Shown: one piece after another, positions 20,474-25,244 of the stretch
Numbering within the stretch: position 1 is the first letter of the stretch
Layout: each line of letters begins with the position of its first letter
Assembly: GCA_001767945.1 (NCBI GenBank)
Contig: MEMN01000063.1
Location: 1-36,791, forward strand
Reading direction: 5' to 3'
DNA length: 36,791 bases
Source of the DNA: Alphaproteobacteria bacterium RIFCSPHIGHO2_12_FULL_66_14
GTDB lineage: Bacteria > Pseudomonadota > Alphaproteobacteria > Reyranellales > Reyranellaceae
Translations under genes and position numbers: made by a program
Notes under the pieces: generated by a model
Seen by the model: only the letters and a program-made list of their open reading frames with translations
What the model was told of the DNA's origin: nothing
The model's database searches: none

Positions 20474-21136
20474 ATGCGCAGACGCAAACGACCTACGCCC
20501 GCCGAACTCGGCCTCTCGGCCGAAGAGGGCCGCGTTCTCGCCGCGTTGCGCACGCCGCAGCGCGTGCAGGAGTTCGTCGTCGGCCTGCCGGCCAATTTCG
20601 AGCAGGGAGGTGACACCTTGCGGTCGGTCCGCGGCGTGCTGCGCCATCGCAAGGCGCATTGCATCGAAGCGGCCTTCGTTGCCGCCTGTGCGCTGTGGCT
20701 ACATGGCGATCCGCCCCTGCTCATGGACCTGACCGCGAAGGGCGATGCCGATCACGTCGTCGCCCTCTTCCGCCGCGACGGCTGCTGGGGGGCAATCTCC
20801 AAGAGCAATCACGCTTGGCTGCGCTGGCGCGATCCCGTCTATCGCAGCCTCCGCGAACTCGCGATGTCGTACTTCCACGAGTACTTCAACAAGGGCCGCA
20901 AGACGCTTCGCACCTATTCGGCGTCGGTTGATCTGCGCCGCTTTCCGCCCGGCATGTGGATCACTAACGAGGAAGACTGTTGGGATGTCGGCGCCGCCGT
21001 CGACGACTCGCGTCACTACCGGCTGATCACGCCGGTGCAGATGCGCTGGCTCATGTCGCCGGACGCCACCGTGATGCGCGCTGACAGCCTGGTTCAATAC
21101 GAAAGCCGCGATCGCAAGACGGCCCGAAGGTACTGA
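20474..21136 (+). CDS. Hypothetical protein, transglutaminase-like
   Basis: 220 residues from ATG 20474; a TTG at 20441 would add 11 residues and no start has a clear Shine-Dalgarno. The centre reads RSVRGVLRHRKAHCIEAAFVAA (C63) and DADHVVALFRRDGCWGAIS (H94), an order and spacing that resemble the Cys-His core of transglutaminase-like proteins. RSLRELAMSYFHEYFN follows. The charged N-terminus lacks a signal peptide, so it is likely cytoplasmic. The secreted protein gene starts 11 nt later, so they probably form an operon. Catalytic function is a guess from the Cys/His pair. Confidence 0.65.
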   Translation: MRRRKRPTPAELGLSAEEGRVLAALRTPQRVQEFVVGLPANFEQGGDTLRSVRGVLRHRKAHCIEAAFVAACALWLHGDPPLLMDLTAKGDADHVVALFRRDGCWGAISKSNHAWLRWRDPVYRSLRELAMSYFHEYFNKGRKTLRTYSASVDLRRFPPGMWITNEEDCWDVGAAVDDSRHYRLITPVQMRWLMSPDATVMRADSLVQYESRDRKTARRY

Positions 21137-21147
21137 GGAGCATCACG

Positions 21148-21801
21148 ATGAGGTATGCGATCCTCGGCTTTTTGCTCTCGGTGCTCGGCGCGGCGCCGGT
21201 CGCCGCGCAGATTCCACCGGAGTGGCAGGCGGCGGCCCAGGCCGTGATCGGCGAGCTGGAGCGCGACACGCCACGGGCCGCCAAGCCGTGGGGACCCGAG
21301 CTGACGCAAGGCTGGAACCTCGCGCGCGCCTGGCGCAAGCACAACAACGGCAACATCGAGATCATCCTTGCCGAGTATCTCACCTTCACCGCTCTCTGCC
21401 GCCGCGGCTGCAGCGGCAGCACGATCAAAGGCCAAGGCTATGTCGCGGTCGCCGAGCAGGCGAAAGCGCTGCGCAACCAGAATGGCGGGGCCTATGCGAT
21501 GGCCTCCAATGCGCATGCCTGGCTTGCTGGCCTGCCCGATCCCAGCGGTGCTGCGCAGAAGAACGCCGCTCTCTGGGCGAAGGACCTCGACGTGGCGTCG
21601 GCCGACTTCGCCACCAGCAACATCTACGCGCTAGCCTGGCTGTTGGCCCGCAACCGGGCGACGCCCGCCGAACAGGCCGACGCCTTCGCACGGTTCGCGA
21701 TTTTCGTGCAAGGCAAGGCCTGGATCGGCGCGCACTGCCTCGACATCTCGAAGGTGGCGACGGTGCTCGACGCGCCGCCGCGGATCGACGCCTGCAAATG
21801 A
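21148..21801 (+). CDS. Secreted hypothetical protein
   Basis: 217 residues. A strong Shine-Dalgarno GAGGAG lies just before ATG. The signal peptide MRYAILGFLLSVLGAAPVAA-QIPP is clear. The mature part contains four cysteines (in ALCRRGCSG, AHCLD and the last residues DACK), which could form disulfides. No known domain is recognised. It follows the transglutaminase-like gene by 11 nt and ends at a strong bidirectional hairpin. Periplasmic location is inferred from the signal peptide. Confidence 0.7.
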   Translation: MRYAILGFLLSVLGAAPVAAQIPPEWQAAAQAVIGELERDTPRAAKPWGPELTQGWNLARAWRKHNNGNIEIILAEYLTFTALCRRGCSGSTIKGQGYVAVAEQAKALRNQNGGAYAMASNAHAWLAGLPDPSGAAQKNAALWAKDLDVASADFATSNIYALAWLLARNRATPAEQADAFARFAIFVQGKAWIGAHCLDISKVATVLDAPPRIDACK

Positions 21802-21846: not shown

Positions 21847-22914
21847 CTATTCGGCCGCGATCGAGTCCTGCACGAACTTCTTCTTGTCGAAGTCATCGGC
21901 GACCTGGAGGTCGTTGCCGATCAGCTGATTGATGTCGATCTTGGCGTATTCCATCACGCCCATGTCACCCAGCGCCTTCTGCACCTTGGGCCCGAACAGG
22001 CCGATCTCCTTGAGGATCGGCACGATGCGGGTGAACAGCCTGGAACGGAACGCCTGCATGGCGCCCGAGTTGTAGGCGTATTCCATCAGCTTATCGACCG
22101 GCAGGCCCGACCGCATCCAGACCTCGGCCTGGTTGAAGCGGTCGCGCATGAAGTAGAGCGCCTCGACCGTGAATTCCTCGCGCTCGGCGCGCTCGGCGTC
22201 GGAGAGATGCGGGTAGTATTCGCGCAGGGCCATGCGGCCGAACGTGACGTGGCGCGCCTCGTCCTGCATCACGTAGGCGTTCACCGACGCGGCCAGGTTG
22301 TTCTTGGCGCTGTCGCGGATGCGCTGGAAGGCAGCGAGCGCCAGGCCTTCGATCAGAACCTGCATGCCGAGATAGGTCATGTCCCAGCGGCGGTCGGTCA
22401 GCGTCTGCTCAAGCAGCTGCTTGAGCGACGGCGTTATCGGGTAGGCGCACTTGAACTTTTCGTGGATCAGCCGCTTGTAGCTCTCGACGTGGCGGGCCTC
22501 GTCCATCACTTGGGTGGCGGCATAGAACTTGGCGTTCATGTCCGGCACGGTATTGACGATCTTGGCCGTCGCAATCAGCGCACCCTGCTCACCGTGCATG
22601 AACTGGCAGATGGAGTGGCACTGCAGGTTGAAGCGCAGCCAGTCCTTCTCCTTTTCGGTCATCTTTTCCCAGAAGGGCGAGCCGTAGATCGGAATGCTCT
22701 CGTCGGCCATGCCCATCGGGTTGCCTTCGAACAGCTCCTGCGTCCAGTCGATGCGCGTGGAGGTGTCCCACTGCTGCTGCTTGCCCTTCTCGTAGAGGTT
22801 CAGCAGGTCGGACGAGCCCTCGTCGTATTCCCAATTGAAGGCAATCTCGGTGGCGCCATCGAATTTCCAGCCCGTCGTTTCGACCGGCAGCGCGTAGATC
22901 TTCTGTGTGCTCAT
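21847..22914 (-). CDS. Di-iron ferritin-like oxygenase, paralog 1
   Basis: 355 residues from ATG 22914, with AGGAGG 10 nt upstream. A complete carboxylate-bridged di-iron site can be read: E109 (FMHGEQGAL), E139 and H142 (MDEARHVESYK), E189 (VLIEGLALAAF), E219 and H222 (MQDEARHVTFG). This is the E..ExxH..E..ExxH pattern shared by R2-type ribonucleotide reductase subunits, acyl-ACP desaturases and AurF-like N-oxygenases. The E189-E219 spacing (30) and overall length do not fit one described subfamily that I can name. It is about 72 % identical, without gaps, to the paralog at 24095-25162. The reductase gene diverges 150 bp away. Oxygenase function is inferred; the substrate is unknown. Confidence 0.85.
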   Translation of the reverse strand: MSTQKIYALPVETTGWKFDGATEIAFNWEYDEGSSDLLNLYEKGKQQQWDTSTRIDWTQELFEGNPMGMADESIPIYGSPFWEKMTEKEKDWLRFNLQCHSICQFMHGEQGALIATAKIVNTVPDMNAKFYAATQVMDEARHVESYKRLIHEKFKCAYPITPSLKQLLEQTLTDRRWDMTYLGMQVLIEGLALAAFQRIRDSAKNNLAASVNAYVMQDEARHVTFGRMALREYYPHLSDAERAEREEFTVEALYFMRDRFNQAEVWMRSGLPVDKLMEYAYNSGAMQAFRSRLFTRIVPILKEIGLFGPKVQKALGDMGVMEYAKIDINQLIGNDLQVADDFDKKKFVQDSIAAE

Positions 22915-23004
22915 GTGTCTCTTGCCTCCTGACGCTGAAAGCGGTCCCATCCCGGGGAGCCGGAGCGGCAATTATGACGCTCCGTTCATTTTTCTAGGCG
23001 GAAA

Positions 23005-23021
23005 CTATCACAAGCTGATAG
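23005..23021. promoter_or_regulatory. Perfect inverted repeat in divergent promoter region
   Basis: CTATCA-caagc-TGATAG is a 6-5-6 perfect dyad. It is about midway in the 150 bp separating the start codons of oxygenase 1 (22914) and the reductase (23065), as expected for a shared operator. The dimer-binding regulator is not identified. No similar dyad was found upstream of oxygenase 2. Confidence 0.5.
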
Positions 23022-23064
23022 ACGAGTCCCGCGGTTTTCAGGGTACGTGAGCACGGATTTTCCC

Positions 23065-24084
23065 ATGGCCTATCATCAGTTGCGCATCGCTAAAATCATC
23101 CAGGAAACGCCAGATGCGCGCTCCTTCGTTTTCGAGATTCCAGCCGATCTGGCCGAGAAGTTCCGCTACCGGGCCGGGCAGTTCCTGACCTTCCGGGTGC
23201 CCCATGCCGACGGCGCCTTCAACCGCTGCTATTCGCTGTCCAGCGCACCGGGGATCGACGGCCTGCCCAAGGTCACCGTGAAACGGGTGGCAGGCGGCAA
23301 GGGTTCCAACTGGTTCCACGACGCCCTCAAGGAGGGTGGCAGCCTGGACGTGCTGCCGCCGGCCGGCCGCTTCGTGCTGGGCGACGGCGATGCACCGCTG
23401 CTGCTGTTTGGCGGCGGCAGCGGCGTCACGCCCATGATGGCGCTGATCAAGAGCGCACTCAAAACCAGCAAGCGCCGGATGCGCCTATTCTATGCCAATC
23501 GCGACAAGCCCTCGATCATCTTCGACGCCGAGTTCGAGGTGCTGATCAAGGCCAACCCTGGCCGGCTCGAGGTGATCCACCATCTCGATGCCGCGCAGGG
23601 CCTCACCAAGCCCGAGGAAATCGCGGCCGCCCTGAGAGGCTTTGAAGATGCCGAGGCATATCTCTGCGGCCCTGGTCCGTTCATGACCCTGGTGGAGAAC
23701 ACCCTGCTGGCGGCCGGACTGCCGCGCGAGCGCGTGCGCATCGAGCGCTTCGAGGCCTCGGGCAATGACGCGGTGCCGGTCGAGCCGGCGGAAGGCGAAG
23801 TGATCCCGAGCGAGATCACCATCCATTTCGAGGGCAAGACGCACAAGGTGCCCTACCAGAAGGGCCAGACGATCCTGGTCGCGGCGCGCGCCGCCGGGCT
23901 CAATCCGCTGTCGTCCTGCGAAGAGGGCTTCTGTGCCTCATGCGCGGCCAAGCGCATCAAGGGCAAGGTCGTTCTCGCCAACAACGATATCTATACGGCC
24001 GACGATCTCGCCAACGACTGGATACTCACCTGCCAGGGTCATTGCTTCGGCCCCGAGGTCGAGATCACCTACGACGTGGTCTAA
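23065..24084 (+). CDS. Flavin/[2Fe-2S] oxidoreductase (PaaE/KshB-like reductase)
   Basis: 339 residues from ATG 23065; a GTG at 23047 would add six. The FAD domain carries RCYSLSS. The NAD(P) domain has LLFGGGSGVTPMMALIKSAL and AYLCGPGPFM. The C-terminal plant-type ferredoxin shows CEEGFCASC (Cx4Cx2C), then a fourth Cys near ILTCQGHC. This order (FNR-like then ferredoxin) is the layout of reductases that feed electrons to di-iron or Rieske oxygenases. It lies between two di-iron oxygenase paralogs, divergent from one and ending 10 nt from the other's stop. It is the likely common electron donor (inference). Confidence 0.9.
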   Translation: MAYHQLRIAKIIQETPDARSFVFEIPADLAEKFRYRAGQFLTFRVPHADGAFNRCYSLSSAPGIDGLPKVTVKRVAGGKGSNWFHDALKEGGSLDVLPPAGRFVLGDGDAPLLLFGGGSGVTPMMALIKSALKTSKRRMRLFYANRDKPSIIFDAEFEVLIKANPGRLEVIHHLDAAQGLTKPEEIAAALRGFEDAEAYLCGPGPFMTLVENTLLAAGLPRERVRIERFEASGNDAVPVEPAEGEVIPSEITIHFEGKTHKVPYQKGQTILVAARAAGLNPLSSCEEGFCASCAAKRIKGKVVLANNDIYTADDLANDWILTCQGHCFGPEVEITYDVV

Positions 24085-24094
24085 CTCGCAAGGA

Positions 24095-25162
24095 TCATTC
24101 GGCCGCGATCGCCTTTTCGACGAACATCTTCTTGTCGAACTCCTCGGCCACCTTGCCGTCGTTGGCGAGCTGTTCGGTGACGTTGATGTCGGCATATTCC
24201 ATCACGCCCATTTCGCCGAAGGCCTTGCGCACGCGAGGCCCCCACAGGCCGATATCCTTCACCGTCGGCACGACGCGGCTGAACAGGCGGCCGCGGAAAG
24301 AGTTCATCTGCTTGGAGTTGTAGTGGATGTCGTCGAGAGTCTTGGCCGGTAACCCCAGCCGCTCCCATACTTCCGACTGGTTGAAGCGGTCGCGCATGAA
24401 ATGGAGCGCTTCGACCACGAATTCCTCACGCTCGTCGCGCTCGGCGTCGGAGAGGTGCGGGTAGTATTCGCGCAACGCCAAGCGCCCGAACGACACGTGG
24501 CGCGCCTCATCCTGCATGACGTAAGCGTTGACGGCGCCGGCCAGCGTATTGCCCGCCTTGTCGCGAATCGACTGGAAGGCGGCGAGCGCCAGCCCCTCGA
24601 TCAGCACCTGCATGCCGAGATAAGTCATGTCCCAGCGCCGATCGGTCAGGATCTGCTCGAGCAGCGTCTTCAGTGCCTTGTTGATCGGATAGGCGACCTG
24701 GAACTTCTCGTGCAACAGGCGCTTGTAGGCCTCGACGTGACGCGCCTCGTCCATCACCTGGGTCGCAGCATAGAACTTGGCGTTCATGTCGGGAACGGTT
24801 TCGACGATTTTCGACGTGGCGATCAGGGCGCCCTGCTCGCCGTGCAGGAACTGCGAGATCGAATTGGCCTGGAGATGAAGGCGTAGCCACGCCTTCTCCT
24901 TGTCGGTCATCTTGTTCCAGTAGTCGGTGCCGTAGATCGAGATGGCCTCGTCCTTGAGCTCCATCGGATTGTCGGGATTGAGTTCGAGCGACCAGTCGAG
25001 CCGCTTGCTGGCGTCCCACTGCTGTTGCTTGCCCTTCTCGTAGAGCTCGAGCAGCGGCGCCGAGCCGTCCTCGTATTCCCAGTTGAAGAGCATTTCGACT
25101 TTGCCGTCGAACGTCCATTGCGTCGTCTCGACGGGCAAAGCGTAGATACGTTGCGTGCTCAT
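24095..25162 (-). CDS. Di-iron ferritin-like oxygenase, paralog 2
   Basis: 355 residues from ATG 25162, exactly the length of paralog 1. All six metal ligands are kept (E109; E139/H142; E189; E219/H222) within LHGEQGAL, MDEARHVEAYK, VLIEGLALAAF and MQDEARHVSFG. Divergence is concentrated at residues 55-80 and 270-290, while the metal core is almost invariant. That suggests different substrates or partners rather than loss of function. It is convergent with the reductase gene (10 nt between stops) and lies just downstream of an OmpR-type regulator on the same strand, 82 nt after its stop. Confidence 0.85.
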   Translation of the reverse strand: MSTQRIYALPVETTQWTFDGKVEMLFNWEYEDGSAPLLELYEKGKQQQWDASKRLDWSLELNPDNPMELKDEAISIYGTDYWNKMTDKEKAWLRLHLQANSISQFLHGEQGALIATSKIVETVPDMNAKFYAATQVMDEARHVEAYKRLLHEKFQVAYPINKALKTLLEQILTDRRWDMTYLGMQVLIEGLALAAFQSIRDKAGNTLAGAVNAYVMQDEARHVSFGRLALREYYPHLSDAERDEREEFVVEALHFMRDRFNQSEVWERLGLPAKTLDDIHYNSKQMNSFRGRLFSRVVPTVKDIGLWGPRVRKAFGEMGVMEYADINVTEQLANDGKVAEEFDKKMFVEKAIAAE

Positions 25163-25244
25163 GGCGCTGCCCTCCCGGGCGGATTTCAGTGTCCGTAGCC
25201 AAAAAATGACGCCTTGTTCACCTTCTGGCAAGTCCCTATTTCGT

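Follow-up and report, generated by a model that had tools for sequence, protein, structure and literature searches.

The N-oxygenase AurF holds its di-iron site with seven iron ligands, the extra histidine, in the motif HxxDExxH, being characteristic of N-oxygenases, and two histidines with four carboxylates make up the ligand set of most di-iron hydroxylases (PMC12101540, PMC13061610). The enzymes cADO and the di-iron BioE (for BioE, ligands described in PMC12915131) combine a six-ligand di-iron site with fatty-acyl or fatty-aldehyde substrates and an external reducing system. R2lox has the 2-His/4-carboxylate arrangement together with an ether cross-link between a valine and a tyrosine. Here we compare these systems, and the PaaABCDE system, with a locus of three genes in a 36,791-nucleotide stretch of DNA from Alphaproteobacteria bacterium RIFCSPHIGHO2_12_FULL_66_14, a member of the Reyranellaceae (contig MEMN01000063.1, positions 1 to 36,791; the whole stretch is called the window). 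In this locus two paralogous predicted di-iron oxygenases, P1 and P2, flank a flavin- and iron-sulphur-dependent reductase.

P1 (21847..22914, minus strand) and P2 (24095..25162, minus strand) each read as 355 amino acids (aa) from an ATG. They are 72% identical and 84% similar across 355/355 residues with zero gaps, carry the same six ligands and fall into separate orthologue groups. Both match the Pfam family AurF (62.9 bits for P1 and 66.1 bits for P2; cut-off 29.6). Between them lies the gene for an NAD(P)H:FAD/[2Fe-2S] reductase (23047..24084, plus strand), divergent from P1 (132 bp start to start) and convergent with P2 (10 bp stop to stop). Counted from its GTG, the protein has 345 aa; counted from an ATG at 23065, it has 339 aa. 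The ATG is more likely to be the true start, since the alignments of many homologues begin only at residue 5-7. The domains FAD_binding_6, NAD_binding_1 and Fer2 each score above the gathering threshold. The best NCBIfam model is TIGR02160 PaaE, but the score of 203.5 bits falls short of its cut-off (420.8), and the protein is therefore called PaaE-like, not PaaE; it is the probable electron donor.

An earlier note on this DNA, made from the letters alone, had described two gapless 355-residue proteins about 72% identical, each with a full E..ExxH..E..ExxH site, and a PaaE-like reductase between them, and all of this is borne out. It had also remarked that no effector protein or aromatic-degradation genes are near, and none was recognised among the neighbours scanned. 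Its placing of the divergence at residues 55-80 and 270-290 stands in part: in 20-residue blocks, identity is indeed low at 61-80 and 261-300, but it is equally at a minimum at 21-40 and 321-355. The ligand-bearing blocks keep 15-19 of 20 residues identical between P1 and P2.

We consider it fairly probable that P1, P2 and the reductase represent a co-regulated pair of two-component di-iron oxygenases, whose general kind is known but in whose branch no characterised member was found. What the data show directly is the ligands, the fold, the conservation, the linkage of P1 to the reductase, the fixed differences between P1 and P2, and a shared upstream motif. P1 and P2 would be O2-activating monooxygenases or desaturases. 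Electrons would probably pass from NAD(P)H through FAD and the [2Fe-2S] cluster of the reductase to the di-iron site of P1, and the reductase would probably also reduce the site of P2. The reduced site would bind O2 and then oxidise a C-H (or C-C) position of the substrate. The earlier note could not name a subfamily; no characterised one was found here either, and a literature search returned nothing on the P1/P2 subfamily.

The six ligands (E109, E139, H142, E189, E219 and H222 in P1, with D138 and D218 in the second shell) are spaced by 30, 50 and 30 residues, as the earlier note had read them. They are invariant in an alignment of 25 relatives and are kept in 236/236 relatives of a wider set, viral sequences included, and are therefore not a product of chance. 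At the column of the third histidine of AurF (residue 215), 159 of the 236 have Val and 77 have Ile. Since this histidine is absent, the site is of the 2-His/4-carboxylate type seen in di-iron enzymes that oxidise C-H bonds. The AlphaFold2 model of P1 (predicted local distance difference test, pLDDT, 82.5; predicted template modelling score, pTM, 0.82; residues 1-32 unsure) places the six ligands on a four-helix bundle, and P1 and P2 are thus predicted members of the broad 2-His/4-carboxylate ferritin-like class. A structure search with the model gives R2lox (Z 22.7), R2 proteins (Z ~22) and AurF (2jcd, Z 21.7), effectively tied, which supports the R2/AurF-like fold proposed in the earlier note. 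A profile search of the PDB finds R2lox and aldehyde deformylating oxygenase at E ~1e-7.

If P1 and P2 were instead N-oxygenases like AurF, CmlI or DnfA, they would oxidise an amine, amide or hydrazone. We think this unlikely, although several observations point that way. AurF (PF11583) is the best Pfam family, above its gathering score, and gives the longest alignment (289 residues) among the tied structural matches; P1 and P2 share with AurF, CmlI and Dob3 the ferritin-like fold and the E..DExxH..E..DExxH core; and a 43% identical relative on a Streptomyces plasmid lies beside anthranilate synthase, AMP (adenosine monophosphate) ligases and a lyase. The histidine that provides the seventh ligand and marks N-oxygenases (PMC12101540, PMC13061610), however, is replaced in every one of the 236 relatives, and a one-sequence phmmer search finds no AurF chain even at E 10. 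Identity to these enzymes in the structural alignment is 13-14%, and P1 and P2, unlike them, have an adjoining reductase gene. Membership of the AurF N-oxygenases was accordingly rejected in spite of the Pfam score. The Pfam label is formally right, yet from the aligned sequences the ligand that defines N-oxygenases is missing from P1 and P2. Pfam-based annotation calls proteins of this type p-aminobenzoate N-oxygenase, and the ligand set argues against that name.

Other described systems were compared as well. The cADO chains are matched by a profile (A1) at E 1.6e-7, but cADO has ~230 aa as opposed to 355 aa here and the Ald_deCOase model falls below its cut-off for P1 and P2; the acyl-ACP (acyl carrier protein) reductase or biotin genes that would recall cADO or BioE were not recognised among the neighbours scanned. 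PaaE is the protein most similar to the reductase (203 bits), but PaaA/PaaC-type subunits and the other paa genes were not recognised among those neighbours, and membership of PaaE was rejected on this and on the score given above. A paa-like cluster with a PaaE-size reductase, 38% identical, does occur elsewhere (L281). The bacterial multicomponent monooxygenases were rejected because beta and gamma subunits and an MmoB-type effector are not among the neighbours scanned and PF02332 scores below its cut-off. A gap-filling role in ubiquinone hydroxylation was also rejected: COQ7 is present in the genome and the pair is therefore not needed for that step.

What is conserved is the divergent pair of P1 and the reductase, which lie within 400 bp of each other in 59/66 loci. 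The seven exceptions are six loci with a third paralogue (L085, L088, L089, L091, L092 and L094) and L098. P2, on the contrary, is ≤100 bp from the reductase in 6/48 loci and up to 3.8 kb off in others, commonly with a DUF1275 membrane protein in between; in the complete genome G016 it is ~490 kb from P1 and the reductase. The association is thus a looser one, of which the tight three-gene layout of the window is a minority form; the conserved unit is P1 with the reductase and not the flanking arrangement that the earlier note described. Three loci from the family outside Reyranella (L095, L097 and L164) have P1 and the reductase with no P2 nearby.

Whether the reductase is kept with the oxygenases in other genomes, a question on which the earlier note had made its proposal depend, receives a divided answer. 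The reductase is conserved through the Reyranellaceae and in a single further lineage, but most other oxygenase-bearing Alphaproteobacteria lack a close orthologue of it. Among the sampled genomes, orthologues at least 57% identical occur only in the Reyranellaceae and in G081, where the reductase (57-58%; locus L155) is again divergent from an oxygenase relative. At L158 a more distant reductase lies two genes upstream of an oxygenase relative, and in Rhodococcus (L141) FdxA adjoins one. In three further families of Alphaproteobacteria, a gene for a conserved [2Fe-2S] ferredoxin of 106/107 aa is found directly upstream of a relative with 31-36% identity (L168:7471-7791, L169:7481-7801, L170:8917-9240 and L171:7375-7698). 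Judging from these gene neighbourhoods, the pairing with a predicted electron-transfer partner recurs among relatives and the partner changes.

These data also bear on the proposal that the reductase is a neighbour by history only, serving another enzyme, and that P1 and P2 draw on general ferredoxins. The patchy occurrence of close reductase orthologues and the ferredoxins beside some relatives are in its favour, as are distant reductase homologues that lie beside an Acyl-CoA_dh_2-domain protein, an alcohol dehydrogenase, UbiD and a paa-like cluster. The divergent arrangement in 59/66 loci, and its independent occurrence at L155, make it improbable in our view.

A survey of the Reyranellales (76 genomes, match threshold E ≤ 1e-70) found an oxygenase match in 74/76 genomes and in 51/51 of the good ones (≥90% complete, ≤5% contaminated), most with two copies. 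In a wider sample, 26/385 evenly drawn Alphaproteobacteria have a match (E ≤ 1e-30), and relatives at 37-50% identity occur in Actinomycetota and Burkholderia records. In a quick tree, in which the outgroups are on long branches, the P1 sequences, with which Vineibacter and further members of the family group, are sister to the P2 sequences inside one Reyranellaceae clade. Support by the Shimodaira-Hasegawa-like approximate likelihood ratio test (SH-aLRT) is 99 for the clade that unites the two, 99 for P1 and 93 for P2. The duplication would be placed at or near the base of the Reyranellaceae. There are 24 fixed differences between the groups (≥90% within each; 59 and 55 sequences), of which C103S, T224S and M228L are close to ligands in the sequence. 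The divergence appears to affect substrate-facing and surface parts while the metal core stays fixed. The suggestion in the earlier note that one donor serves two specificities agrees with the presence of two orthologue groups, each conserved on its own, with these fixed differences and with the shared operator described below.

The source genome (4.46 Mb in 242 contigs) is assigned to Reyranella by protein matches of 96-98% to named records of that genus. Apart from P1 and P2, it holds only a 29% identical relative, on contig C62, and lacks a third close copy. In some Reyranella genomes a third, P1-like paralogue (82-85% identical) is present at the six exceptional loci listed above; these lack the reductase, and L094 nonetheless keeps the palindrome.

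Could P1 and P2 together form one heteromeric enzyme instead of two? Their equal length, their common operator and the retention of both in most Reyranella genomes would suit such an enzyme. However, both copies have a full metal site, P2 can be remote from P1, relatives from other orders are often found singly, and at least eight relatives from the family (genera g26, g455 and g456) have a single copy, of P1 type where placed, which argues against an obligate heteromer. We regard this reading as rather improbable. A role as radical or oxidase proteins of the R2 kind, resembling either R2lox or the small subunit of ribonucleotide reductase, that do not act on an external substrate is very unlikely, for although R2lox and R2 head the structural matches and Tyr146 of P1, at H+4, occupies the place of the R2 radical tyrosine, this residue is Phe in 92/236 relatives, a canonical NrdB is encoded elsewhere in the source genome (C155, 264 bits), P1 and P2 are under the family cut-off and the R2lox cross-link residues are A112 and M184.

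The ribonucleotide reductase small subunit was rejected as an identity for the pair (PF00268, 27.5 and 26.9 bits against a cut-off of 33.6). R2lox is the top structural match over 248 residues, but is only 14-18% identical to P1, and its NCBIfam model gives no more than 22.5 bits, where the cut-off is at least 194. Its cross-linking Val (E+3) and Tyr (E-5) correspond to A112, which is found in 236/236 relatives, and M184, and R2lox membership was rejected for this reason. The R2lox positions are V72, Y162 and E69, as read from mutant names in the PDB.

The palindrome TGAMCNNNGCGTCA occurs upstream of P1 and P2 alike, and is therefore an indication that the two are probably co-regulated. In both places the palindrome is imperfect. 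The P1 site (TGAACGGAGCGTCA, minus strand, 22975..22988) lies midway in the 132-bp region between P1 and the reductase and could be a control site for both genes. The P2 site (TGAACAAGGCGTCA, minus strand, 25207..25220) lies between TTGCCA (25226-25231) and a -10-like CATTTT (25203-25208), a position that would be typical of a repressor operator; the conserved TTGCCA and the CATnTT-like hexamer upstream of P2 are 17 bp apart. A sigma-70 scan gave no promoter at its default threshold. Using TGACSNNNNSGTCA as a yardstick, defined after the first two sites had been seen, 97% of the 66 regions upstream of P1 agree with it at 9/10 or more specified positions (1.5% of shuffled ones), as do 78% of the 55 regions upstream of P2 (1.4% of shuffled ones); the upstream sequences are related, so these counts are not independent. 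The palindrome is among the most conserved parts of the aligned upstream DNA, and the P1 and P2 upstream regions have little else in common. The distant P2 of G016 (L166) keeps it as TGACGGGCCCGTCA.

Relatives at 31-39% identity carry TGACGCNNGCGTCA upstream, with perfect or near-perfect TGACGC-NN-GCGTCA at L159, L160, L162, L163 and L168-L171; in the last four this sequence or a near form lies in the gap between the ferredoxin gene and the relative. In four other Reyranella genomes the palindrome recurs at conserved genes only for P1 and P2, and once within a coding region that they share. A single DNA-binding regulator with TGAMCNNNGCGTCA as its recognition site would probably control P1, P2 and the reductase divergent from P1.

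In Reyranella itself the neighbouring genes offer no clue to the substrate. Clues come from relatives in the 56-69% identity range, where an acyl-CoA (coenzyme A) dehydrogenase gene overlaps the oxygenase gene (L144) or an enoyl-CoA hydratase gene adjoins it (L146-L150). Acyl genes account for 5/24 of the immediate neighbours, against 4/109 of the genes three or more places away (Fisher p = 0.01), in a test that covers few independent lineages and whose query genes were picked from the same neighbourhoods. An acyl-thioester substrate is therefore a lead and not a finding. A hydrophobic acyl-type molecule, bound to CoA or ACP, is a possible substrate, but on balance a doubtful one. Burkholderia relatives lie in a cluster with AMP-ligase homologues, identified by homology, and the cluster of the Streptomyces relative combines such homologues with carrier proteins.

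That relative is on a plasmid of Streptomyces sp. NBC_00536 (L140:5567-21084), in a stretch that also holds the anthranilate synthase, a FAD protein and a lyase-family protein. The cluster resembles those making N-N or N-O bonds and is possibly diazo- or N-N-forming.

Several findings weigh against the interpretation of P1, P2 and the reductase as a co-regulated oxygenase pair, and against the acyl lead. The acyl link derives from neighbours of 42-69% identical relatives, at a small number of loci that are partly related to one another. In those Reyranella loci that were tested, the pair has no acyl-CoA gene nearby, and literature searches yielded no useful fatty-acid data for the genus. Across the other Reyranella genomes tested, the exact palindrome shows no genome-wide enrichment (26 matches against 19 for the reversed control), and a literature search for it found no matching regulator. 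Since close reductase orthologues are mostly missing outside the family, the donor would not be strictly specific.

With these points taken into account, we propose only tentatively the wider account in which this is an undescribed O2-dependent family with a core, near-universal role in the Reyranellaceae, comprising two co-regulated specificities, with an operator conserved as far as the 31-39% relatives, and acquired as an auxiliary gene by T4-like marine viruses. When IMG/VR contigs were scanned with a profile, 153 relatives were found, and among the best 80 of these 153, nine have a homologue of the T4-like major capsid protein gp23 in the flank that was fetched. The viral di-iron proteins have 358 aa and are 36-41% identical to P1. 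Isolate phage genomes gave no match, so the viral copies rest on metagenomic contigs; the remaining contigs could include cellular DNA. If the viral genes encode the same chemistry, they would suggest that phages modify their hosts in a way so far unrecorded. The conserved pair, its probable donor, the operator and the relatives in Actinomycetota, Burkholderia and marine viruses together offer a tractable entry to this di-iron branch.

Individual viral loci illustrate the setting. In L187:388-9307 (IMGVR_UViG_3300048024_000375) and eight similar loci, AurF-like di-iron genes lie among structural genes of T4-like marine viruses, including those for gp23, a large tail-like open reading frame and a Peptidase_G2 tail protein. 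In L245:691-8631, baseplate and tail proteins adjoin the di-iron gene.

The source genome has a further copy of the exact palindrome (G000:C171:1496-1509, L296), 95 bp upstream of the gene for a flavin monooxygenase. This gene was rejected as a co-regulated one: the palindrome was not found at it in four other Reyranella genomes and, as the site does not recur and the genome totals are near the reversed control, it is treated as chance.

Reyranella is a genus of soil and water bacteria. The neighbouring genes in this genus encode a response regulator, a GTP cyclohydrolase II-like protein and two conserved proteins with no Pfam match. The latter two (21148-21801 and 20474-21136 in the window) adjoin P1 throughout Reyranella, and the first of them is present in Vineibacter too.

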